DNA of 64,000 bases, from assembly GCA_003707065.3 (NCBI GenBank), contig PPXM03000001.1, positions 806,001-870,000 on the forward strand, given 5' to 3'. Both the position numbers and the translations under genes were made by a program. Shown one piece after another: positions 15,134 to 61,109 of this stretch (the first letter of the stretch is position 1; every line of letters begins with the position of its first letter). Origin of the DNA: Trigonopsis variabilis. Lineage: Eukaryota; Ascomycota; Trigonopsidomycetes; Trigonopsidales; Trigonopsidaceae. Below the pieces are notes generated by a model, which had not been told where the DNA came from, did no database searches, and saw nothing but the letters and a program-made list of their open reading frames with translations.

Positions 15134-15247
15134 TGGTCGGGACGAGATTCGAACTCGCGCCTCCGAAGAGACCAGAAACCACCTTGTGAGGCAACTAAGC
15201 TTTGACAACTTGAGTCTGGCACCTTAGACCAACTCGGTCACCCGACC
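15134..15247 (-). tRNA. tRNA-Leu (anticodon CAA) with intron
   Basis: Acceptor arms GGTCGGG and CCCGACC pair perfectly, with discriminator A at 15134. The D arm, A box (TGACCGAGTTGGTCTAAGG), long variable arm and B box (GGTTCGAATC-like, GAGTTCGAATC) are all present. The anticodon stem is CCAGA/TCTGG and the loop reads C-T-CAA-G before an intron of about 31 nt that begins TTG, complementary to the anticodon. A long variable arm and an intron at this site are typical of fungal tRNA-Leu(CAA). Confidence 0.95.
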
Positions 15248-18971: not shown

Positions 18972-20228
18972 CTAGATAGTGAAACATAGAGTAGAAACGA
19001 GCAACGTCAGTAACAAGATGGGGCTGAAAGACATGACTGGGGCAATAGAGGTAGAAGTTACTGTCGCTAAGGTATCTGTCAAGACTTCAGAGGGGCTCGT
19101 GATTTCATTGTTAATCCAATCTAGGACGGTAGAAGCAGTCAGGTTTGTATCGAATGTCGTCGAATTGGATAAGAAAATCGATATGGTACCATCTGAATCA
19201 AGAATAGCACCGCCTTTCATTGTAGCATTAGGAGTTCGTAGCAAATAGCCGTATGCTGGGATACCAGTCGATATATACTCTATGCCCTGAAAGTCGTGGA
19301 TAGTTGAAAACATGTGCGAAGACAATGTATCATTCATGACTTCAAAAATATCCAACTCACCGCAGCCACTTTCCCAGCATGAACAGTTAGTGTTTGTGGG
19401 ATACTGAGATGTTCTGGAAATCCTGCCATTGAGCAACCATATAGCGGGCATGTTATATCCTGAAATAGAATCAGAATAAGTTTGGTTTTCAGTAGGCATC
19501 TCGAATTCAAACAAAAACATCTTTGTTTTACCATAATAACCATAATAAGCAGGAATGCCGTCCCGATAGACACCACATCCTTTCTTAAGACTCGAGCTAG
19601 GACATTCTTCTGCAGAGTAGATATAGTATTCTTGGCCAGAAGAAATATAGTTATCCGCTTCCAAAATAGTGGATTCAGTGCTCGCCTCAATACCATTGGT
19701 ACTCGCATAGGTCATGCCAAGGCCTAACCAGGTAAGATTCTCTCCCGCATTGGTTAAAAATGTCACATTATCAGCAGTTTGAGATTCCGCATCATAATAA
19801 GCTAGTCTTGACCATGATTCTCCGGTACTATTAGCCACAGAGAAAGATTCACTAGTCCAGACACCAAATTGGCTTAAATGAAGAGGACCTCTAAAATGAA
19901 CAGAGAGCTCTTCATCTAATGGAGCATTAGTGCCACTAAATGTCTTTCGCTTGGAGTTTGGCTCACAGACACCATCTCCTATCTTTTTAACCTCGAGATA
20001 GCTACCAGAAAACCCAACGTTGGAAAATTCGATAACGTTATACTGGGGCCCAGATGCTCCACCGCTGCTCTGAGCTCTTGCAACTATTACTGGTTGACTA
20101 TCCGGACTTGCCTCATGTAGATTTCCTTGGATCGCATCGACGGTATCATCCCACTCACCAAAGAGATTGGCGAAGGTCGATGGAGTAAACAGCAGAGTAC
20201 TAGCGAGAGTTGAAGATAGGAATCGCAT
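18972..20228 (-). CDS. TOS1: TOS1/YJL171C-like GPI cell-wall glucan-active protein
   Basis: A 418-residue secreted protein. It has a signal peptide (MRFLSSTLASTLLFTPSTFA), then the DUF2403 block (YNVIEFSNVGFSGSYLEVKKI, FSGTNAPLDEELSVHFRGPL). This is followed by the DUF2401/GH16-like domain with MPAIWLLNGRISRTSQYPT and CSCWESGCGELDIFEVMN, where the ELDIFE glutamates are the likely catalytic pair. The end is Ser/Thr-rich with a hydrophobic tail (SFSPILLLTLLVSTLCFTI) suited to a GPI anchor. Tos1-type proteins act on beta-1,3-glucan in the wall. Single exon. An ATCACGTGAT palindrome lies about 355 bp upstream. Confidence 0.85.
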   Translation of the reverse strand: MRFLSSTLASTLLFTPSTFANLFGEWDDTVDAIQGNLHEASPDSQPVIVARAQSSGGASGPQYNVIEFSNVGFSGSYLEVKKIGDGVCEPNSKRKTFSGTNAPLDEELSVHFRGPLHLSQFGVWTSESFSVANSTGESWSRLAYYDAESQTADNVTFLTNAGENLTWLGLGMTYASTNGIEASTESTILEADNYISSGQEYYIYSAEECPSSSLKKGCGVYRDGIPAYYGYYGKTKMFLFEFEMPTENQTYSDSISGYNMPAIWLLNGRISRTSQYPTNTNCSCWESGCGELDIFEVMNDTLSSHMFSTIHDFQGIEYISTGIPAYGYLLRTPNATMKGGAILDSDGTISIFLSNSTTFDTNLTASTVLDWINNEITSPSEVLTDTLATVTSTSIAPVMSFSPILLLTLLVSTLCFTI

Positions 20229-46343: not shown

Positions 46344-49300
46344 ATGGTCAGTTTAGCCGCGTTGGCTGCGAACCTCCTAGTCATAGGGACCTTTGTTGGA
46401 GCTGTCACGAACAGCTCTCAATATTTGTCAGATACGAATGACTGGACTTCCAACGTTGAGGGTAAAGCGTTCAACCGTTATATTCAAATTTGGCTCGAGA
46501 ATCAAGTAAGTTGCCGTCCTGACAAATCCTAACTTCTAGAACTACGACAAGGCTGTCGTCAATAGCGATTTGGAATGGCTATCTACCCAAGGTATTCTCC
46601 TGACCAACTATTTTGGTATTTCTCATCCTTCAGAGCCCAACTACGTTGCGGCTGTAGGTGGATCCAACTTTGGTATTGCAGATGATAATCTCTATAACAT
46701 CCCTTCTAATGTCTCTACTGTCGCTGATCTACTTGATGATTCTGATATTTCTTGGGCTGAGTACCAAGAAAGCATGCCCTATACTGGATACGTCGGCATG
46801 TCTTATCTTGATCCTGCTACCAATTACTATCTTTATCAGAGAAAGCACAATCCTTTGGTCATCTATGAAAGCGTAAATCAAGATAATGATCGTCTGAGGA
46901 ATCTCAAGAACTTGACCCTATTTGATTACGATTTGGAGAGACAAATGCTTCCTCAGTGGATGTTTATCACGCCTAACATGAAAAATGATGGACACGACAC
47001 TGGTCTAGCCTATGGAGCCAACTGGTCTCGAGCATTCTTGGAACCCTTGCTATCGAATGAATATTTCATGAAGGATACTCTCATCCTCTTGACCTACGAT
47101 GAGTCTGAAACCTACACCATTCAGAACCGTGTCTATGGTGTGTTGCTTGGAGGTGTTGTCCCTGATGAGCTCAAGGGCACAGAAGATGACACATTCTATG
47201 ACCACTTCTCGTCTATTTCGACTATTGAGAACAACTGGGGACTTTACAGTCTTGGACGAGGTGATATCGGTTCTAATGTGTTCCAGCTCGTCGCCAACAA
47301 GACTGGATACAGCAACAATAACTCTATCAATGTGGATGATATTTACCTTAACACTGCCATTGCAGGATGGGCATCTGGAGACGGCATTCCTTGTCCTGAC
47401 ATCGACGCTGTTGGAGCAGGAGGCAAGGCTGCCTTACCAGCTATCGCTTCTGTCTGGTCCACGTGTGGAACTTCGAGTCCTTCTTCCACTGCTGGTGCTT
47501 CCGTCTCTTCCGGTTCGGTTCAGTCTCACACTTCAGTTTCTTCAAGCGTTCCCAGTTCTTTTCTTGTGCAGTCCTCTCAAAAGGCCTCGTTCACCTCTAG
47601 TCCTTCTATTTCATTCTCTGCGTCAGCAAGTGCGTCTGCATCGAGTTCTTCGGCTCCCGCAAACATATCATATCCTTCATGGAAGCGAAATATCTCTGAC
47701 TACATCATTGATCCATCAACTTGGGACTATGATGCTGCTCCTCAGGAACGAACTTTCGAGTTCACCGTTACTGAAGGTGAAGCGTATCCCGATGGCTATA
47801 ACCGGCCAATGCTATTGTTCAATGGCCAATTTCCCGGCCCCCTGATCCAGGTCAACGAAGGAGACACTATTGTGGCTACGGTCCATAACAAGGCTTCGGT
47901 GTCCACAAGTGTTCACTGGCATGGTATTCTACAATTAAATTCTAATTTCATGGATGGTACTAATGGTATTACTCAATGCGGTATACCTCCTGGTGAATCG
48001 TTCACTTATCGCTTTACCGTTTCTGATCAGAGAGGCACATATTGGTACCACTCCCATACAGGAGTGCAATATTCTGATGGTCTTTTTGGGCCTTTAGTCA
48101 TTCATTCACAGGAGGACAAAGAGCTCTCTGCATCATATGACAAAGAATTTGTTGTCATGATCAATGACTGGTACCATGAGATGGCCAGCTCTCTTGTTCC
48201 TGACTATCTCAACGCTCTCGGTTCTGGAGCTGAACCAGTGCCCGATTCTGGTTTAGTTGATGGGTTCAACCAATTTGACTGCTCTAATGCAGGGTCTAAC
48301 GAATGTGTTGATGCTCCTCTTGCTACTTTCAATGTGGAGTCGGGGAATAAATATAGGTTCCGATTGATCAATACCGGAAGTTTTGCCGACTTTGAAGTAT
48401 CAGTTGATGGTCATTCACTCTCTCTCATTGAAGCTGACGGATGTTTATTGTCGCCCTTTGATGTTTCGAATATTCCTATCCATGTCGCTCAAAGATACTC
48501 TTTTATTTTGGATGCGAGCCAGACAGCTTCCGATAGCTACTGGTTCCGCGCAGAAATGAATTCAAATTGTTTCTATGCGAATAATCCGGTTTTGAACACG
48601 ACTGTTACTGCCATTATTGCCTACGATGGGTCGATTTCGACTCCAGCAACTACTGCAGAACAGTTCGAAATGCCTTCGGAATGCCAGGACTTCTCTCTGT
48701 CCCTCCTTCATCCTCTTACCTCTCTGGATGTGCCGGATGCTGATATTCTCATTTCTACGCATATCACTTATTCCGTGGATGGAACCACAAGACAGTGGAC
48801 ACTTGAAAGTGAAGCCTGGAGTCCTCTAAACGACACAACGACGCTTGCTATGGGCATGGCTTCAAATGACTCTTTTGACGTTCTCGGATACACCAACATC
48901 TATGGGTCAGATCAGCTTGTTTATTCTCTGAATGATTCTTATGTCGTTGATATTGCAGTGGAGAACAATTTTGCCCAAGCCCATCCCTTCCATCTTCATG
49001 GCCATGAATTTTTCATCCTCGCTTCCGGTTCTGGTTCCTTGTCTGATTCAACCTACAAATCCCTCGATATATCATCCATCAATCCTATCAAGAGAGATAC
49101 TTTTACTCTAGTTGACTATGGATGGACTCTAATCCGAGTTGTTTTTGACAATCCAGGAATGTGGGCATTCCACTGCCATATCGTGTGGCACATGGAAGCT
49201 GGCCTGCTAATGCAGTTTGCTGTCGAGCCTGAAAAGATGGCTGAACTTTCACCTCCATCTGATTGGTACGGTCTATGTTCTAACAACGGATCTATATCTG

Positions 49301-51301
49301 CATCTTCTAGTTTGTCTAGTCTTGCTCCTACAGCCTCTTCGTCTTATATTTATTCTTCTCCATCGTCAAGTGCGGTTGTACAATCTGCAAGGTATAGTCA
49401 TTATTGCATTTCACTCTGACTCTTTAGATCTTCGACTCCAGTCTCTTCTGCTAACGAAGGGTCTGCATCAAGCTATTCCAAGCCGAGATCGGCCACTGCC
49501 GTTGTGCATACCTCTGGGCTTGTATCCACTTCTGCCGTCGCTTCGTCCTCTCCTGCAGGAATCAGTCATGTAGCTTCTTCTGACCGAGTTTCATTAGCTT
49601 CATCAACTTCTGCCATACCAACTGCCAAGTAAGTAAGATACTGGATTTGAGACTGACCATAGATCTTCGGCTTATGTCTCGTCCACCAAAAGTTTATCCA
49701 CTGCTGCTTCATCTACTTCTAGTGAAGTATTTACTCTAGCTCCTTCGAGTTCAGCTTCTGTACCTTATGGTTCTTCAGCACAACTGAGCACGATTAAGAG
49801 TGCTGTTGCTTCGGGTAGTTCGCCTCAAGAAAGTTCTGGTGCTCTTTCTTCAGCTGGCTTGTCGCTTGAGAGTTCTAGTGCTGTCCCCTCCACTAGTGTA
49901 TCTTCAGCTAGCATAGCGTTGGATAGCTCTATTGCTCTCGTTTCTGCTACCTCAGCTATCTCAGCGGCCTCAGCAATCTCGTCTCCTTCTCGAGTGATCA
50001 CCTCGTCGTCAAGTCTACCTTCGTCTACTGGGGCAGAGTTCTACTTCTCTTTCTCAATCGCTGGAGCTACTATTGTTATAGAGATTGATAATGGTAAGAT
50101 TGAGTTAATAATCAGTGCCTCTCTGCATAAGAGAGCCGAAACGATTACCAACTGCTTCCAATTGGTTGATAGCTCTTTGATTCTGGATGGACAGTATTAT
50201 GTTTATCCTGATTCTACTGGCCAACTCTATGCTGTTGCTGTTCTTCCTGACGGTGTTCAAGCTGTCTGGGCTGCGCAAGATGGCATTTTGAGCGTCAACG
50301 GTTATTCACAATTCTATTACTGCAGCGATGGCGGTCTCTATGTCAAGATTTCGGACTATGTCTGCACATCTTATACTGTTGTCAGCGCTGGCCAGAATTC
50401 TAGATGTTCTATTCAATCTGTTAGCGTGTCACCTGTCGTCAGCTCAAGCTCCGTGCCATCTGCCAACTCTGTCTTATCAACTCCTAGCGCAAGTGCTTAC
50501 ACAACTCTATCGATGTACCAGTCTTCATCAGCTGCAGCTCCTGCAGGAAGTTCCGCAGGTGAAGTCAGCGTTAGCAGCTTTAATGAAGTCTCTGGCTCCA
50601 CTGTACCCGCTGGATCAATTTCAAATGTTGCTAGTGCCACTTATACTGTTGTCCCAGTTACTTCTACTGTCACCTCTCTCAAGGAATATACGATAACAAC
50701 TTGCTCCAATCACGGATGCCATGATGTTGTTGGCACATCTACGGTTACCGATTTCGTCACCTACGAGACTACTGTTCCTTGTGAGACCCGGTCCATAGAG
50801 ACTTCAATGACTACCAAAGTCTTGACTACCCAGTCTGTGGAAATTTATGAGACGGTTGTTATTCCTTGTCATAAGTGTGCTGAGACCACATCACAAGTTA
50901 CCACTACCATCTGGAACGTTTTTACCACTGTTGTGCCATGTGAAAGTGGCCTGTCCACCGAAGCCACTGGTGCTGCCGAAGCCACTGGTGCTGCCGAAGC
51001 CACTGGCGCTGCCGAAGCCACTGGTGCTGCCGAAGCCACTGGCGCTGCCGAAGCCACTGGTGCTGCCGAAGCTACTGGTGCCGCAGAGGGCACTCAAGCC
51101 ACATTAACCGAGAAACCTGCTGAAGCGACGGGAAGCGCCGGTGTCGCTGTAACCACTTTTGCTACTGAGGCTGCGGAAAGCTCTGCTGCAAATGAAGGCT
51201 CACCTTCCCCCTCAACATCATCCTTCAGCGCCGGCGAAAAATTAGTGTGGAACAAGTTCTTGTTTTCTTCTCTTCTCACTCTTGGTCTTTTCGTCCTTTA
51301 G
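46344..51301 (+). CDS. GPI-anchored acid phosphatase - multicopper oxidase fusion
   Basis: One gene, exons 46344-46505, 46540-49391, 49428-49628 and 49663-51301 (introns 34, 36 and 34 nt), about 1,617 residues. After a signal peptide, residues 30-330 are a fungal acid phosphatase of the phosphoesterase family (NRYIQIWLENQ, LTNYFGISHPSEPNYVAAVGG, LILLTYDESETY). A Ser-rich linker follows. Residues 430-965 are a complete laccase-type multicopper oxidase with all four copper motifs: HWHG near 512, YWYHSHTG near 554, HPFHLHGHEF near 867 and HCHIVWHMEAGLL near 931 (axial Leu). Both enzymes lie in the second exon in one uninterrupted frame. Then come a Ser/Thr stalk, a cysteine module (1195-1310) after a KR site, flocculin-like Cys repeats, seven EATGAA repeats and a GPI signal. 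Domain calls are firm; the fusion's role is unknown. Confidence 0.87.
50960..51085 (+). repeat. seven tandem 18-bp repeats encoding EATGAA
   Basis: Units of GAAGCCACTGGTGCTGCC-type sequence, mostly differing at one third-codon position (ggt/ggc); the seventh has three changes. They lie in frame near residues 1504-1546, just before the GPI region, and probably vary in number between strains. Confidence 0.95.
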
Positions 51302-52161: not shown

Positions 52162-55100
52162 TTAGTGCACACACGTGGTACTATTCGAAGGGGCAAAGTA
52201 AACAAAATCGGAAACATCAGTAGTACTTGAACCGCTAGGCATCGTCATAGTCATCCACATTCGGTAAGTCTTCCTTTGGTTATAGTAGACAATCCTCAAT
52301 GGATAGAATGACCCAGCTGTCATATACATAGATGTCTCTAAGCTCGAAGGGTTGTTAGTTCCATCGTTGGTCTTGAGAATCATAACATCGTAGTTAGAAT
52401 CCGGGGACACATAGTCAGGATCGCAACAGGGGAAAGCGTCGTCCGATCCAATAAAGAAGATCAGGCCATCGTCAACAGTGAACGAGAACTGATAAGTACC
52501 GGTAACATTAGGACGGAAGTAACCCGTCATAGCAGCAGTGAAATTGGAAACCGTTAGATCTTCTCCAAACAGCTCTGCATTAACAACTCCAGCATCGTTA
52601 AGCACAACATCGAAAGAAGGCTCTGTGACATTATAGATGGTGTCGTAGATCACTCCAGTCGAATAGTAACCATATGAAAGATAGCTTTCAGACAAAGGCC
52701 AGTCGAGGTTGTATGTCGAGTTATAAATCTGCACACGCAATCCACTGCTTGGCTGACTTGAGAAGGCGCAAGCAAGAGATGGTGCAACAGTAGCCACAGC
52801 TGCTGCTGACGATGTCACTTGGGCTGATATACTGGCCGAAGCAACCGATGAAGACAAAGCTCGAGAAGAAACAGTGGACGTAGTAAATGATGAAGATAGC
52901 ACTCGAGTTGAGAGACTGGCCGAAGCAAGAGATGAAGTTACCACCTTGGATGAGAAACTGCGGGAAGCAGACGACGAAGACAAAGCTCGCGAAGATATAC
53001 TGGAAGTGGCACCCTTGAACGCAGAGCTAGAGGAGGTCGCATTATTGCCTGAACATCCCTGAGAAGATGTAGAAGAGAAGAAGACAAAGTCAGAAACATC
53101 GGTAGTACTTGAGCCACCAGGCCAAGTCACTGTCATCCACATTCGGTAAGTCTTTCTCTGGTTGTAGTAAACAATCCTCAATGGATAGAATGACCCAGCT
53201 GTCATATACATAGATGTCTCTAAGCTCGAAGGGTTGTTAGTTCCATCGTTGGTCTTGAGAATCATAACATCGTAGTTAGAATCCGGGGACACATAGTCAG
53301 GATCGCAACAGGGGAAAGCGTCGTCCGATCCAATAAAGAAGATCAGGCCATCGTCAACAGTGAACGAGAACTGATAAGTACCGGTAACATTAGGACGGAA
53401 GTAACCCGTCATAGCAGCAGTGAAATTGGAAACCGTTAGATCTTCTCCAAACAGCTCTGCATTAACAACTCCAGCATCGTTAAGCACAACATCGAAAGAA
53501 GGCTCTGTGACATTATAGATGGTGTCGTAGATCACTCCAGTCGAATAGTAACCATATGAAAGATAGCTTTCAGACAAAGGCCAGTCGAGGTTGTATGTCG
53601 AGTTATAAATCTGCACACGCAATCCACTGCTTGGCTGACTTGAGAAGGCNNNNNNNNNNNNNNNNNNNNNNNNNNNNNNNNNNNNNNNNNNNNNNNNNNN
53701 NNNNNNNNNNNNNNNNNNNNNNNNNNNNNNNNNNNNNNNNNNNNNNNNNNNNNNNNNNNNNNNNNNNNNNNNNNNNNNNNNNNNNNNNNNNNNNNNNNNN
53801 NNNNNNNNNNNNNNNNNNNNNNNNNNNNNNNNNNNNNNNNNNNNNNNNNNNNNNNNNNNNNNNNNNNNNNNNNNNNNNNNNNNNNNNNNNNNNNNNNNNN
53901 NNNNNNNNNNNNNNNNNNNNNNNNNNNNNNNNNNNNNNNNNNNNNNNNNNNNNNNNNNNNNNNNNNNNNNNNNNNNNNNNNNNNNNNNNNNNNNNNNNNN
54001 NNNNNNNNNNNNNNNNNNNNNNNNNNNNNNNNNNNNNNNNNNNNNNNNNNNNNNNNNNNNNNNNNNNNNNNNNNNNNNNNNNNNNNNNNNNNNNNNNNNN
54101 NNNNNNNNNNNNNNNNNNNNNNNNNNNNNNNNNNNNNNNNNNNNNNNNNNNNNNNNNNNNNNNNNNNNNNNNNNNNNNNNNNNNNNNNNNNNNNNNNNNN
54201 NNNNNNNNNNNNNNNNNNNNNNNNNNNNNNNNNNNNNNNNNNNNNNNNNNNNNNNNNNNNNNNNNNNNNNNNNNNNNNNNNNNNNNNNNNNNNNNNNNNN
54301 NNNNNNNNNNNNNNNNNNNNNNNNNNNNNNNNNNNNNNNNNNNNNNNNNNTGATAAGTACCGGTAACATTAGGACGGAAGTAACCCGTCATAGCAGCAGT
54401 GAAATTGGAAACCGTTAGATCTTCTCCAAACAGCTCTGCATTAACAACTCCAGCATCGTTAAGCACAACATCGAAAGAAGGCTCTGTGACATTATAGATG
54501 GTGTCGTAGATCACTCCAGTCGAATAGTAACCATATGAAAGATAGCTTTCAGACAAAGGCCAGTCGAGGTTGTATGTCGAGTTATAAATCTGTACGCGTA
54601 ATCCGCTACTTGGCTGACTCGAGAACTCACAAGCAAGGGATGGCGCAACGGTAGCCGTAGCTAATACCGTCTGGCTAGAGACACTAGCAGTGGCACTAGC
54701 AGAAATAGAGCTAGACGAAGTGACATTGTTGCTCGAGCATCCCTGAGAAGACGCTGAAGAGAAGTATACAAAATCAGAGACATCGGTAGTACTTGAACCA
54801 CTGGGTAATGTCACAGTCATCCACATTCGGTAAGTCTTCCTTTGGTTGTAGTAAACAATTCTCAATGGATAATATGCTCCAGCTGTCATGTACATAGATG
54901 TCTCTAAGCTCGAAGGGTTGTTAGTTCCATCGTTGGTCTTGAGAATCATAACATCGTAGTTAGAATCAGGGGACACATAGTCAGGATCGCAACAGGGGAA
55001 AGCGTCGTCCGATCCAATAAAGAAGATCAGGCCATCGTCAACAGTGAACGAGAATTGATAAGTACCGGTAACATTAGGACGGAAGTAACCCGTCATAGCA

Positions 55101-57818
55101 GCAGTGAAATTGGAAACCGTTAGATCTTCTCCAAACAGCTCTGCATTAACAACTCCAGCATCGTTAAGCACAACATCGAAAGAAGGCTCTGTGACATTAT
55201 AGATGGTGTCGTAGATCACTCCAGTCGAATAGTAACCATATGAAAGATAGCTTTCAGACAAAGGCCAGTCGAGGTTGTATGTCGAGTTATAAATCTGTAC
55301 GCGTAATCCGCTACTTGGCTGACTCGAGAACTCACAAGCAAGAGATGGCGCGATAGTTGCGGTCACCACGGGAGCAGTTGTGGATTGAGTGACACTTGAG
55401 AACGAAGAAGTTCTCTGAGAGTAAGGAGTTTCAGTAAATGTAGGAGTGGTACAACCAGAATTGGTCGCGACAGTTGATGTAGCCTGACCAGCTGAATAAG
55501 CACTAGATGTTGATGATGAAGCACTGTATGTCGGAGCTAATGAAGTAAATAGAGCACTTGTTGAAGCAATATTCGTTGCTGAAGGCCCACTAGAGCTTTC
55601 TTTGGACACTGGATTTGATGCACTCGCGGGAATAAGAGTAGATGACTTAGCCAATACCTGACTCGATGCACTAGCTCGAATAATACTAGAACTCTCGAAC
55701 GTCACCGAGCTCGATTCACTCAAGGGAATCACAGTGGAGCTCTTAGTCGAGGCAGAATTCGATTCACTCGTGGGAATAAGAGCTTGACTAGTCGCAGATA
55801 CTGGGAAGGAATTCTTGGAGAAGCTTGATGTGACTATACCCGAGTCGACTGTGGAAGAAACTAACTGAGATAACAGCTGCGATTTCGAGATACCAACGTT
55901 GGATGTAGGAGAACTAATGAAAGTATTTGAATGGCCAGCTGGACTTGAAAGAGTGCTGAGCTTTGAAAAAAGTGACGAAGAGCTGCTCCGCAAAGGCTCA
56001 TATCCAGAAGACGAGGCCGACTGTAAACCCGAAGATGGGGAAGTAGAACGACTGTAAGATTCATAAGGAGTCGAATCGACAGACACGCTTGCACCCCTTG
56101 AATATGAAAAATAAGAAGCCGATTTAGATGGAAAAACTTTCTGCGACAAAGTTGAGGCTGAGTTGGCAAAACTATCAATCCCTGTAGACGACCCCAAAGG
56201 AGCCGATGAAATTCCAATAGAAGATTGAGACCCAATCAAACAATTCAATGATACACTTGCGGTAATCTGGACAAATTCTGAGCAAGCATAGTCTGCAGAG
56301 AACTGAGCATAGAGATTACTGGTTGTTCCGGTGCAAATATAGAATCCCAGTGAGCTCTCTAAACTTAAAACGCCATTGACAAAGCTCCAGGTAGAGTGGA
56401 AGCCTGCTGGGACACTAGAAGCTGCATACACGATACCAGAGTCATCAGCATAGAGGTAGTAGTTATTGTTAAAAATCAAAGCGCTACCACGAAGCTCAAA
56501 ACAGTTAGAGACCAAATCCAAGTCACGTCTTGCTAAGTTTGATACAACTACCCTGCTAGTGTCTGTATCAATCATAATTTCGTAACCATTCAAATCGAAA
56601 GAAAGGAAAACAGAAGAAGCAGACGGAGAAGCTGCTGCTGACGATGATGTAGTAACAGAATATAAGCTCCTTGATGATGACGAATTTCCAGAGAAAGAAG
56701 CGACGCTTTTAGTTGAAGATAAGGATGACTTAGTGTCGATAGATGTTTCTGAGAGAGATATCACAGATGCACCTTCGGCTAATTGTTAGCATATACATAT
56801 CTTTCTGAAGCATACCTGAAGAAGTCTCTGATTGCGAGCTGCCAACAGAAGTAATAGAGGAAATCTCAGCCGATGTCACGGTTAGTCCTTCTCCTGATGT
56901 CAATATAACCATACTATTCCGTGACATACCTGAAGAGCTTCCGGATGGCAAGCTGCCGACAGAGGAAACTGCATGAGAGACTAGGCCAGTCGGACTCGAG
57001 TAAGAGGAGACAGAGGACACAGCTTGTGTAGGAGAGAGATTAACTGTTGATTGACCTTATATCAGTAAGTAGTAAGAAGTAAACTTACCAATTACAATCG
57101 TAGTACTTGAGACAGTAACGGTCACAGGAGAACAAACATATCCAGTAGAAAGAGATTCTGATGTGGCCAAAGACGTGAAAGTTTCGACCTCCGTCCAAGT
57201 TGAGCAGTCTCCGTTGTCATGATAAGAGCTTGTTTCATAGAAACCAGTGATTATTTCAGTCTGCACGCGGGTCACGGTTTCCACGACACAACTAGCAACG
57301 GGAGCTTCCGTGATAATAGGCAAGATTTCGACCTTTGTGCAAGATGTTTGGACACTAGCCGATCCAATTCGGTCTGTGAGCGTTTCAGTCACCCAGTGAG
57401 AAATCGTAGCAGTTCCTTCAATGGTAACTTCCATAAGCGTACTAGCAGGTTCCCAAACATAAGTTTTTGTAGACGACGATTCCAAGCCAGCCACTAAGGA
57501 TGTATAGGAAGTCCTGGTGGAACAGCCGATTGTTTCAGTGGTGGTAAAGTACTCGGTTATGGTGGACTCTCCACTGGGATAGAGATAAGTGGAAGTGAAT
57601 TCCTTAGTAAAAGACGGAGTTTCAGTAATGCAAGCAGCACATATACTGTAAACAGTTTGGACGGACGTTTCTGTGGCAGTCAGATCAGTGAACAAGGTTT
57701 TGGTCTGCGAACAGCTAGCATCCGGGACAGATACAGTCTCGGTAGTAGTCACGGTCTCTGCATTGACACAAAGAAGGTAGACCAAAAGGCCGACCAGTGT
57801 GGTAGAAAAAGAGCGCAT
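52162..57818 (-). CDS. giant secreted adhesin with PA14/GLEYA-like repeats (gap inside)
   Basis: Minus-strand exons are 57089-57818, 56930-57055, 56816-56893 and 52162-56778, with introns of 33, 36 and 37 nt; roughly 1,850 residues. It has a signal peptide (MRSFSTTLVGLLVYLLCVNA), then a Thr/Cys-rich flocculin-like region, a cysteine module near 56250-56610 after an RR site, and a long Ser-rich stalk. Four lectin-like domains follow (SSGLRVQIYNSTYNLDWPL, TGTYQFSFTVDDGLIFFIGSDDAFPCCDPDY, YYPLRIVYYNQRKTYRMWMT), the PA14/GLEYA fold of yeast adhesins. The N run at 53650-54350 shifts the frame: the summed length is not a multiple of three, so the true gap should be 3n+1 bases. No GPI tail is visible; the protein ends shortly after the last domain (NSTTCVH). 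Confidence 0.85.
52190..55352 (-). repeat. four near-identical PA14/GLEYA-like repeat units
   Basis: Units lie at about 54740-55352, 54351-54640 (cut by the gap), 53062-53649 and 52190-52770. Over some 450 bp they are almost base-for-base identical, while the Ser-rich linkers differ. Equivalent points are 705, 979 (across the gap) and 882 bp apart. Units 1 and 2 share one variant of the domain's first codons and units 3 and 4 share another. Confidence 0.9.
53650..54350. other. assembly gap (701 N)
   Basis: Run of N inside the adhesin repeats. It hides the second half of repeat 2 and the linker to repeat 3, and possibly further repeats. Confidence 1.
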
Positions 57819-58765
57819 CGCGAGATTATCGAGGATACTCTAATACTCGGGACCTAGGGAAGAAAGACAAAGGTTAAAGAAAAAAGAAGGCAGTAAACAG
57901 AAAAGCAGATGAAGCGAGTGAATCAAGCGAGTGTTGCAGAGGGACAAAGGCAGGTTGACCGAGCTTTATGAGTGGGTATACCCTCACAGACAGATATAAT
58001 ATCCCTGTTTTCGAAAATTAAATTGAATTCTGTTTTCGGAAACCAAACGGATCACGGTCATAAGCAGAACGTGCACTTCCATATTTTCGTGAGAATTAGG
58101 AAATTAGTAATAGACAAACTAGGCAATTGACAACCTGTCATCGAAAAAACTTATACCAAATAGGCGACATTGGATCTTCATGTACTATTTGGTTCTGCTG
58201 CACGTTCAGAATTGGGGGGTTTTGGGTTCCTCATCGGTCCTCCATCCACGTGGACCTCGAAGGCGTACCCAAAGAGTAAAGGGCCTGATAGCGATCGTAT
58301 TCTTCTTCCCCTTCAATAAAGAAAGATAAGAAGTCAGAAACAACGAAATTATCCTAGGAATTTGGTATCATCGGACTATATGCTTAAGCATATTAGTGAG
58401 TGAAGAAGATCTTGGGAGAAAACAAGCTACTGACCATAACACGCTGGACACTAGTGTTCGCCGACAGGTACCTTTCTCGCAAAAGAATCTCGAAACGGTT
58501 AACCCACCTATTCGGCTCCTGTTAAAGTGATCGGGAATTAAGTGGCCATGAACAGAATACCTATCTATGGAGACTAGCCAAATTGGGACTTTATCCCACG
58601 TGCGGGGTGCGCTGTCTCGTATATTGTATGACCATAGTCGTCCTTTTTCTTGATCTGTGTTCTCTCTTTTTTTCCTCAGTCTCTCTTTCCTCTAACTGGA
58701 GATATTCATCTTTCTATCGTTAATTTCATTTGAATTCCCAGTTAGGTATTTTCTTTCGTTTGTCA
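57819..58765. other. divergent promoter, adhesin / GH92
   Basis: About 950 bp. It contains the CCACGTGG palindrome at 58246-58253 and CCCACGTG at 58595-58602, and a pyrimidine-rich stretch before the GH92 start. No gene is seen. Confidence 0.5.
58246..58602. promoter_or_regulatory. two CACGTG-type sites (CCACGTGG, CCCACGTG)
   Basis: E-boxes with the G/C flanks preferred by Pho4-like bHLH factors. The second is the reverse complement of the site upstream of the phosphatase-oxidase gene (45678-45685). Function is inferred. Confidence 0.35.
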
Positions 58766-61109
58766 ATGTTGTTCATTTTATTTATCTGGGCCTCGCTCTC
58801 GCTTGGACTGTCAGGTATTGACTATGTGAACGTATTGTAAGTACAATCTCTGGCAGCAGCTGATACATTCAAGTATGGGAACAGAAGGAGGAGGCCATGT
58901 ATTCCCTGGCCCTTGTCTTCCTCATGGGATGGTGAAAATGGGTGTCGATATAACGGGAGCTAGTTCTGGCGATGCTTACTCGGGCTATGCTCCTGATGGA
59001 GTTATCCAAGGTATATCAATGATGCACGAAAGTGGCACTGGTGGTGCTCCAGAGTATGGTGTTGTATCTCAGATGGCCTCGACTGGCAAGTTTGATGCGA
59101 GCACATCCTGGGGATCAGGAAGGGTTAGTTTAATCTCAAAACAGCGTGCTAATATCTAGCGAGAGAGCGATTTAGCTTTTGTTGGCTACTATAAAGTCTT
59201 TCTGCAAAATAATGCTGATGTCGAATTCGCTCCTACTGCTCACGCCGGTGTCTATCACTATACATTTCCTTCTACTGAGACGGCAAACATCATTGTTGAT
59301 GTTGCTCATCACCTTAACACAGTATCGCGACCTTATTGGACCCAATATTTTGTCAATGGTTCGATATCGGTTTCAGAAGATCTTCTGTCATATTCTGGAC
59401 AAACAACTATCACAGGCGGTTGGGGCGAGCAATCTGCGTGGACAATCTATTTCTATGGGGAGTTTGACACGAAGCCTGAGTCTGTCACTGCTTTTGTGGG
59501 CACCAGCATGTCTGCTGGTTCTCTGACTGCATCTTCGACAACTCAGGATCAACAAAATGGTATCGCGTTCACTTTCCCCTCTGGTACTACTGATGTGCGC
59601 TCGCACGTTGGTATCTCTTTCATTTCGATTGATAAAGCTAAATCTAACTTGGTATCGGAACTTTGTCACTTCGATGTTGACTCGGTCACGCAAGCTGCCC
59701 GAGATGCTTGGAATACAGAGATATTTGATCGCGTCGATGTAGACACTTCTAATTCGGAAATCGCTCGGATGGTCTACTCTTCTCTATATGCTGGAAATCT
59801 GCTTCCATCGGATAGAACAGGAGAAAATCCCAACTGGGAATCTACTGAACCCTATTATGATGATTGGTTCACAATTTGGGACATCTTCAGATGTCTTACT
59901 CCTCTATTTAACGTCCTAATTCCTTCCCGTTCTGCCGATATGGTGCGCTCTTTGATTGATATATACCGCTATGACGGCTGGATGCCCGATGGACGATCCG
60001 CCAATCAGAACGGAAGAACTCAAGGTGGATCAAATGCAGACATAGTCTTGGCCGATGCTTATATTAAAAATATAGGCCAAGGCTCTATCAACTGGGAAGA
60101 CGGCTACGCCGCTATGGTTAAGGATGCGGAAGTTCAACCTCCTAATAACAATGATTCATTTGCTTCTGACTCTTCTACTAAGGAGGGGCGCGGTGCTTTG
60201 CCTGACTGGCTTGCATTAGGATGGGTTACTCGTAATTATACACGATCTGTCACCCGAACGATGGAGTATGCTTACGATGATTTTGGTTTGGCTGTTGTCG
60301 CCCAAGGATTGGGTAAGACGGATGATTACGAGAAATATCTCAAGCGATCGGGTAACTGGCGAAACATATTCAATCCAGATGCCACCGCTTCTGGATACTC
60401 TTATACAGGCTTCATCCAACCTCGCAATGCTGATGGTGAATTCAATTATGATAATTATAATCCTATGAGCTGCGGAAGTTGTTATTGGGCCGATGATGAG
60501 TATGAAGGGAAGCCAGTCGAATATATGTTCACTGTCCCTCAAGATGTCGAGACTTTGATCGAATACTGCGGTGGGAATGAGACCTTTGTTCAACGAATTG
60601 ATGACCTCTTTGGTAACCTCGGCGAGACAAGTATGCTGGCTGATGTTGGCAATGAACCTTCTTTCTTGACCCCTTTCATGTACAACTATGTCAACATGAA
60701 CTACAAGACTGTTGCAGTGACTCGCTATATCATGAACAAGTCCTATAATGACGGCGTTTCAGGTATTCCTGGCAACTCTGATGCCGGTGCGATGCAGGGT
60801 TGGGAACTTTGGAATATCATGGGACTTTACCCTGTGACTGGAACTACTACCTATCTACTAGCTGCCCCTTTTGTTTCCTATTTCACGCTTACTCTGGAGA
60901 ATGGATCACAGGTCAAGATCACGGCAGATAACCTTGGTGATTCTTCTTATTATATCCAGTCCGTCCTTCTAAACGGAGAGTCTTACGATAAGAACTGGAT
61001 TGCTCATGATGATCTTTTCGCCAACGGTGGTACCCTTCATTTCGTTTTGGGATCTAATCCCATAGTCTGGGAAACTGGAAGTGTGCCCCCGAGCCCCGGT
61101 CATTATTAA
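58766..61109 (+). CDS. secreted GH92 alpha-1,2-mannosidase-type glycosidase
   Basis: Calcium-dependent exo-alpha-mannosidase family. Exons are 58766-58836, 58874-59123 and 59160-61109, with introns of 37 and 36 nt; 756 residues. It has a signal peptide (MLLFILFIWASLSLGLSG). The first junction gives IDYVNV-FMGTEGGGHVFPGPCLPHGMVKMGVD, the GH92 opening, and the second SWGSGR-RESDLAFVGYYKVFL. Catalytic-domain blocks include YYDDWFTIWDIFRCLTPLFN, YDGWMPDGRSANQNG, QGGSNADIVLADAYIK, LADVGNEPSFLTPFMYNYV and GIPGNSDAGAMQGWELWNIMGLYPVTG. These contain the Glu/Asp residues that act as acid and base in this family. It probably acts outside the cell or in the secretory path; no GPI tail. Divergent from the adhesin. 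Confidence 0.93.

Follow-up and report, generated by a model that had tools for sequence, protein, structure and literature searches.

A gene of the ascomycete Trigonopsis variabilis (assembly GCA_003707065.3, contig PPXM03000001.1) is predicted to encode, in one reading frame, an acid phosphatase-family domain followed by a three-cupredoxin multicopper oxidase. The gene lies within positions 806,001 to 870,000 of the forward strand, and this whole stretch of 64,000 nucleotides, numbered from 1, is called the window here. As far as can be judged from sequence, the precursor ends like a glycosylphosphatidylinositol (GPI) protein. Most likely this single precursor brings two enzymes to the cell wall, whether it is cut or left uncut. 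A more specific reading, given a probability of roughly 0.55, is that the protease Kex2 would cut it after Arg437 to yield two wall enzymes in equal number, one for phosphate scavenging and one for phenol oxidation. Both halves are ordinary enzymes; the undescribed part is the joining of the two, in the literature examined by title and abstract beginning.

One frame with two enzyme domains

The fusion gene starts with the ATG at 46344, and its stop codon ends at 51301, which is the span given in an earlier note made from the letters of this DNA. Four exons (46344-46505, 46540-49391, 49428-49628 and 49663-51301) are spliced into a protein of 1617 amino acids, whose sole stop is the terminal one. 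The introns of 34, 36 and 34 nt have GT..AG ends and a CTAAC or CTGAC box near the acceptor, and retention of any single one of them introduces a premature stop into the fusion frame. Exon 1 encodes the first 54 residues, including the signal-like sequence and Glu52-Asn53. The two enzyme domains share the uninterrupted frame of the second exon (open from 46540 to 49419, 959 codons), as the earlier note had it, and two further exons follow downstream.

It is very improbable that the pair results from two genes, with a transcript ending or starting in the linker, or from an artefact of the gene model or of the assembly that misjoined two loci. The linker is of low complexity and Ser-rich, which makes it the easiest place for misassembly. 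However, the frame is continuous there, with no stop and no N base in 47301-47800 (the sole N run of the window is at 53650-54350), and the GC content at third codon positions is alike on either side of the junction (0.46 and 0.41). The same 500 nucleotides contain two donor-like GT sites and no branch box plus acceptor of the gene's own type. The frame of the oxidase has no Met between residue 331 and M478, the sole Met among residues 332-500, which is located within the first cupredoxin domain, and no hydrophobic signal-like stretch is visible by eye in the linker. The oxidase is without a start of its own and is therefore secretable, as the gene stands, only within the precursor.

The N-terminal half contains the phosphoesterase domain PF04185 at residues 68-289 (E=3.6e-31, 109.1 bits against a Pfam gathering score of 23). 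It is probably a metal-dependent phosphatase, belonging within the alkaline phosphatase superfamily to the AcpA/phospholipase C branch. A PDB search with the single sequence returned two chance-level matches only, and a profile of the alignment of plasmid-borne relatives found the acid phosphatase 2d1g (E=2.3e-8) together with phospholipases C. Structure prediction, proposed in the earlier note as a check, gave for residues 55-328 a model with a mean predicted local distance difference test score (pLDDT) of 87.2. Its best fold matches are the fungal phospholipase C 8k3g (E=4.4e-10) and the acid phosphatase 2d1g (E=1.9e-8), both at 16-17% identity; the nine top structural matches have 12-17% identity and template modelling scores, relative to the query, of 0.62-0.67, and sulfatases come next. 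The NCBIfam models of acid phosphatase (TIGR03397, 23.3 bits against a cut-off of 362.75) and PC-PLC (TIGR03396, 30.7 bits against 580.25) score under their cut-offs.

The predicted phosphatase retains the expected catalytic residues. E52, N53, S85, D204, H206, D241, E242 and H276 are identical across five plasmid-borne bacterial relatives. The query was also aligned with 32 of the 80 bacterial and archaeal loci collected, and in these 33 rows D241 is kept throughout, E242 and H276 in 32 each, E52 and N53 in 31 (the other two have gaps) and D204 in 27. S85 is kept in 33/33, a count that is biased as this residue belongs to one of the patterns by which the loci were gathered. Collection relied on two patterns, around HPSxPNY and around PNxxDxH, and because these cover S85, D204 and H206 the counts for all three are biased; the E-N and D-E pairs are free of this bias. 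The two pairs are presumably metal-binding, and S85 is taken to be the candidate nucleophile.

The second enzyme contains the Pfam domains Cu-oxidase_3 (residues 464-579, E=2.1e-46), Cu-oxidase (590-752, E=5.3e-39) and Cu-oxidase_2 (834-952, E=3.6e-38), all above cut-off, and four copper motifs, HWHG at 513, HSH at 558, HPFHLHG at 869 and HCHIVWHMEAGLLM at 932. As expected of a multicopper oxidase, there are three cupredoxin domains and all four motifs for the copper ligands. The domain pair reported in the earlier note is thus recovered in full by the Pfam search of the spliced protein, far above the cut-offs, and the four copper motifs that it reported are present.

From its sequence the oxidase is read as laccase-like, since its best solved relatives, the match at D623 and the mostly missing Fet3 residues all point this way. 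The top PDB relatives are the laccases 9gly (E=4.3e-89, 302.7 bits) and 3sqr (E=1.8e-86, 294 bits). In a four-row alignment of the query, 3sqr, 9gly and Fet3, which is poor near Y354 of Fet3, D623 is aligned with Glu in 3sqr, Asp in 9gly and Gln in Fet3; this position is presumably that of the laccase substrate acid. The axial residue L943 is no discriminator, because Leu is found in Fet3 and in both laccases alike. Oxidation of ascorbate or of metals appears less likely.

It has to be considered that the oxidase serves metals, as a wall ferroxidase or cuprous oxidase beside a phosphatase that would free phosphate and iron, for example from ferric phytate. Fet3 (1zpu) is a clear relative in the PDB (E=5.8e-56, 193.3 bits), it outscores certain chains that bear the name laccase (8r7i and 6klg among them), and its E185 is aligned with E619 of the query. 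On the other hand, the best laccase exceeds it by 302.7 to 193.3 bits, R805 occupies the position of Y354, and D409 falls opposite a gap, which makes such a role unlikely. E185, Y354 and D409 are presumably the ferroxidase residues of Fet3, and a Fet3-type identity was set aside with one of the three aligned.

The junction and the predicted Kex2 cut

The linker between the enzymes (residues 366-432), described as Ser-rich in the earlier note, indeed consists of Ser and Thr to 51% and contains no Cys. Shortly after it comes Lys436-Arg437, in the context PSWKRNISD, and the alignments with laccases start at D441 (3sqr) and at residue 465 (9gly). As this dibasic pair closely precedes the laccase-alignable stretch, Kex2 may split the precursor here; the pair has the sequence of a Kex2 substrate and sits in the linker region, where its composition suggests that it would be accessible. 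There are three KR dipeptides in the whole protein, against 0.5 predicted by composition, and shuffling gives a chance of about 0.025 for any KR within residues 364-442. Another, at 905-906, is in the oxidase core, at a place where Fet3, 3sqr and 9gly all have RR. Lys436-Arg437 may be regarded as a lead to Kex2 cleavage, short of proof. In the available part of PMC2515848 Kex2 is described to process Pir and other wall proteins, and in the Candida protein Ywp1, according to the available part of PMC6258133, the N-terminal piece stays on the wall protein after the cut.

It is proposed that one gene would give one secretory precursor, which would deliver both extracellular enzymes to the cell surface in a 1:1 ratio. 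In the Golgi, Kex2 would cleave behind Arg437. The oxidase would remain attached to the stalk, and the phosphatase would either be free within the wall space or be retained there by contact. The phosphatase would then liberate phosphate from organic esters, like known fungal wall acid phosphatases, while the oxidase, at this surface too, would oxidize phenols or comparable donors; phosphate scavenging and surface phenolic oxidation are the simplest roles for the two. The benefit of the fusion would be shared expression and dosage, with no channelling. At an earlier stage the oxidase probably carried a signal and a propeptide of its own; the Lys-Arg pair may be a relic of its maturation site.

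Several results weigh against this proposal. A shuffling chance of 2.5% makes a weak case for a protease site, and some high-scoring Kex2 sites remain uncut, according to the part of PMC2515848 that was available. The same part describes a preference at cut sites for acidic or small residues at P1', P2' and P4'; here these are Asn, Ile and Asp (with Ser at P3'), of which only the Asp clearly fits. A cut at the second Lys-Arg pair, 1228-1229, would leave the oxidase without its anchor, except if the pieces held together. The oxidase also matches ascorbate oxidase 1aoz strongly in the PDB (E=3.5e-72, 246.8 bits), and the NCBIfam ascorbate oxidase model TIGR03388 (300.9 bits, cut-off 614.8) scores higher than the laccase model (239.3 bits, cut-off 558.9). 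All NCBIfam phosphatase and oxidase models among the matches fall below their cut-offs.

A tentative alternative is that the protein remains whole, as a true two-enzyme wall molecule in which an aryl phosphate would be turned into a phenol and the phenol oxidized by the laccase, or in which the enzymes would merely stand side by side. The single frame, the Ser-rich linker and the expected active-site residues in both halves are in line with it, and so would be a Lys-Arg pair that arose by chance and is followed at P1'-P2' by residues not of the favoured type. However, this pair stands directly before the oxidase in a probably exposed linker, and there is no pointer to aryl phosphates as substrates. 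A wall-anchored device, in which the phosphatase would unmask phosphorylated phenols, the tethered laccase would couple or polymerize them and Kex2 would set the joining, is quite unlikely. The earlier note had speculated on a coupling of phosphate release to oxidation of the freed phenol, or on protection of the phosphatase from metals. What stands of its functional reading is that both enzymes are encoded in one frame and keep the active-site residues expected of them; joint action as one molecule or a coupled pathway is not supported. A Kex2 split, which the earlier note had not raised, is possible. Direct coupling of the reactions, though possible, is unsupported, and the results do not bear on protection from metals. 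The cut precursor with two separately acting wall enzymes is the preferred reading.

Stalk, cysteine module and neighbouring genes

The signal-like N-terminus, the Ser/Thr stalk and the hydrophobic C-terminus at residues 1604-1617 would fit a GPI wall protein, as judged by composition and reading. The GPI-type end recorded in the earlier note is predicted from this C-terminus and from a reading of the residues before it. An 18-bp tandem repeat at 50958-51081 on the forward strand (6.9 copies) encodes EATGAA units ahead of the GPI-type tail, and its copy number may differ between strains.

A cysteine module some 120 residues long, not mentioned in the earlier note, forms part of the stalk. It spans residues 1199-1320 and is matched by the GLEYA adhesin next to the fusion (56608-56240, reverse strand) with 30% identity and E=4e-18, and 4/4 cysteines are aligned between the two copies. 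The dibasic pairs, KR at 1228-1229 in the fusion and RR in the neighbour, are one residue apart in the alignment. DUF7908 stays below the Pfam gathering score in the copy of the fusion (16.9 bits against 27), and so do Fascin, the best match at 17.3 against 23.1, and PIR1-like_C, at 16.6 against 27.6, in the copy of the neighbour. Since Fascin scores slightly higher in the same copy, the likeness to PIR is only a lead; the weak matches of the module to Fascin, Nse4_C and APC were taken as chance. No mention of the name DUF7908 was found in the open-licence literature. A structure model of the module, made from two sequences, has a mean pLDDT of 40.7. The module may be wall-binding or wall-linking, and the fusion may have been assembled on an adhesin-type anchor.

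Table 1. Positions in the window of the parts of the fusion gene and of the related module in its neighbour
Feature	Positions	Strand	Remark
Exon 1, encoding the signal-like sequence and the first part of the phosphatase, with E52-N53 (predicted metal ligands)	46344..46505	+	signal peptide inferred from residues 1-22 by reading
Intron 1, 34 nt	46506..46539	+	
Remaining PF04185 phosphatase region (residues 55-365): S85, D204, H206, D241-E242, H276	46540..47472	+	
Ser-rich linker, residues 366-432	47473..47673	+	exon arithmetic
Three-cupredoxin multicopper oxidase, residues 433-968	47674..49281	+	
Lys436-Arg437, putative Kex2 site separating the two enzymes	47683..47688	+	exon arithmetic
Ser/Thr-rich stalk, residues 969 to ~1195, with introns 2 and 3 inside	49282..50032	+	
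Intron 2, 36 nt	49392..49427	+	
Intron 3, 34 nt	49629..49662	+	
Cysteine module, residues 1199-1320, common to the GLEYA neighbour; includes Lys1228-Arg1229	50042..50407	+	
Second stalk: cysteine-bearing repeats, 18-bp repeat array 50958-51081, hydrophobic C-terminal GPI-type signal	50408..51301	+	
Cysteine module, copy of the GLEYA neighbour (30% identity)	56240..56608	-	

The neighbour itself is a GLEYA/PA14 adhesin at 52162-56785 on the reverse strand, with repeated domains that look near-identical by eye and are broken by 701 N (53650-54350), which may stand for a repeat left unassembled. Upstream of it on the same strand, an open reading frame at 57057-57839 has a signal-like start and a cysteine-bearing sequence rich in Thr and Val; it has no Pfam match and might represent an N-terminal exon belonging to the GLEYA gene. 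It resembles the tail of the fusion by eye, and the match is marginal (E=0.014 in a two-sequence comparison, none at E<=0.01 in another search).

Further wall or glycan genes of the window encode a Tos1/YJL171C-family protein (18972-20228, reverse strand) and a GH92 protein (59160-61109, forward strand), GH92 being presumably an alpha-mannosidase family. A tRNA at 15134-15247 on the reverse strand was detected by Rfam and missed by ARAGORN; as it is 114 nt long, it probably has an intron. The window also encodes a Pol I subunit, which matches PDB 4c2m (RPA135) at 1879.5 bits, above 7aoc (RPA2) at 1701.9 bits. The two chains are presumably those of budding and of fission yeast, respectively, so that kinship with budding yeasts is likely.

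Distribution and comparison with known systems

Among the best 80 of at least 572 bacterial and archaeal loci with PF04185 relatives, none has an oxidase match at E<=1e-5 in stop-to-stop open reading frames of at least 80 amino acids, nor has any of 20 viral-contig loci at E<=1e-3, where the phosphatase was re-found in 18; these loci are non-fungal and say little on fungi. The oxidase as query had no match in viral contigs. No description of a phosphatase-laccase fusion was found among the open-licence papers listed for the pair, for fungal PF04185 proteins or for GPI-anchored laccases, judged mostly by titles and abstract beginnings, which agrees with the statement of the earlier note that such a pair was not known to it. 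An engineered glucanase-laccase fusion is mentioned in PMC12508864, on bifunctional enzymes, and no phosphatase pair is named in the part available.

If expressed as predicted, the gene would be a natural case of two unrelated extracellular enzymes in one GPI-type precursor, the one likely serving phosphate gain and the other copper-dependent oxidation. Because the stalk module is common to the adjacent adhesin, a route for capturing secreted enzymes into an adhesin-type wall scaffold is suggested. For enzyme engineering, the precursor would offer a ready-made display of phosphatase and laccase.

The N-terminal domain shares its fold with acid phosphatase AcpA and with phospholipases C (2d1g, 8k3g), at only 12-17% identity in the nine best structural matches. 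The oxidase is similar to the laccases 9gly, 3sqr and 3v9e, presumably all fungal chains, in its cupredoxin domains, copper ligands and acidic residue at the substrate position. However, those chains are of 496-580 residues, while in the fusion the oxidase is preceded by a phosphatase and followed by the stalk and its GPI-type tail. Ascorbate oxidase (1aoz, TIGR03388) is close to the oxidase by score (3.5e-72 and 300.9 bits, respectively), although the latter value is under the NCBIfam cut-off of 614.8. Fet3 (1zpu), which has a membrane span, is related in sequence and shares the E185 position, but the Y354 and D409 positions are not retained in the fusion.

Ywp1 of Candida albicans is, as described in the available part of PMC6258133, a wall protein in which an N-terminal piece is followed by a dibasic site of the Kex2 type, as is predicted for the fusion. 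Unlike the fusion, Ywp1 is an anti-adhesive wall protein and its cleavage is demonstrated, whereas that of the fusion is predicted. For the phosphatase, a parallel in kind is PhoAp of Aspergillus fumigatus, a GPI-anchored wall acid phosphatase (Bernard et al. 2002, as cited in PMC3958851 and PMC12963243) that is repressed by phosphate (PMC12963243, PMC3958851); a GPI-type Pho610 of Kluyveromyces marxianus is also cited in PMC3958851. In the available parts of these sources no oxidase is described with PhoAp, in which it differs from the fusion, while the two are alike in being acid phosphatases of the fungal wall, GPI-anchored in PhoAp and putatively so in the fusion.

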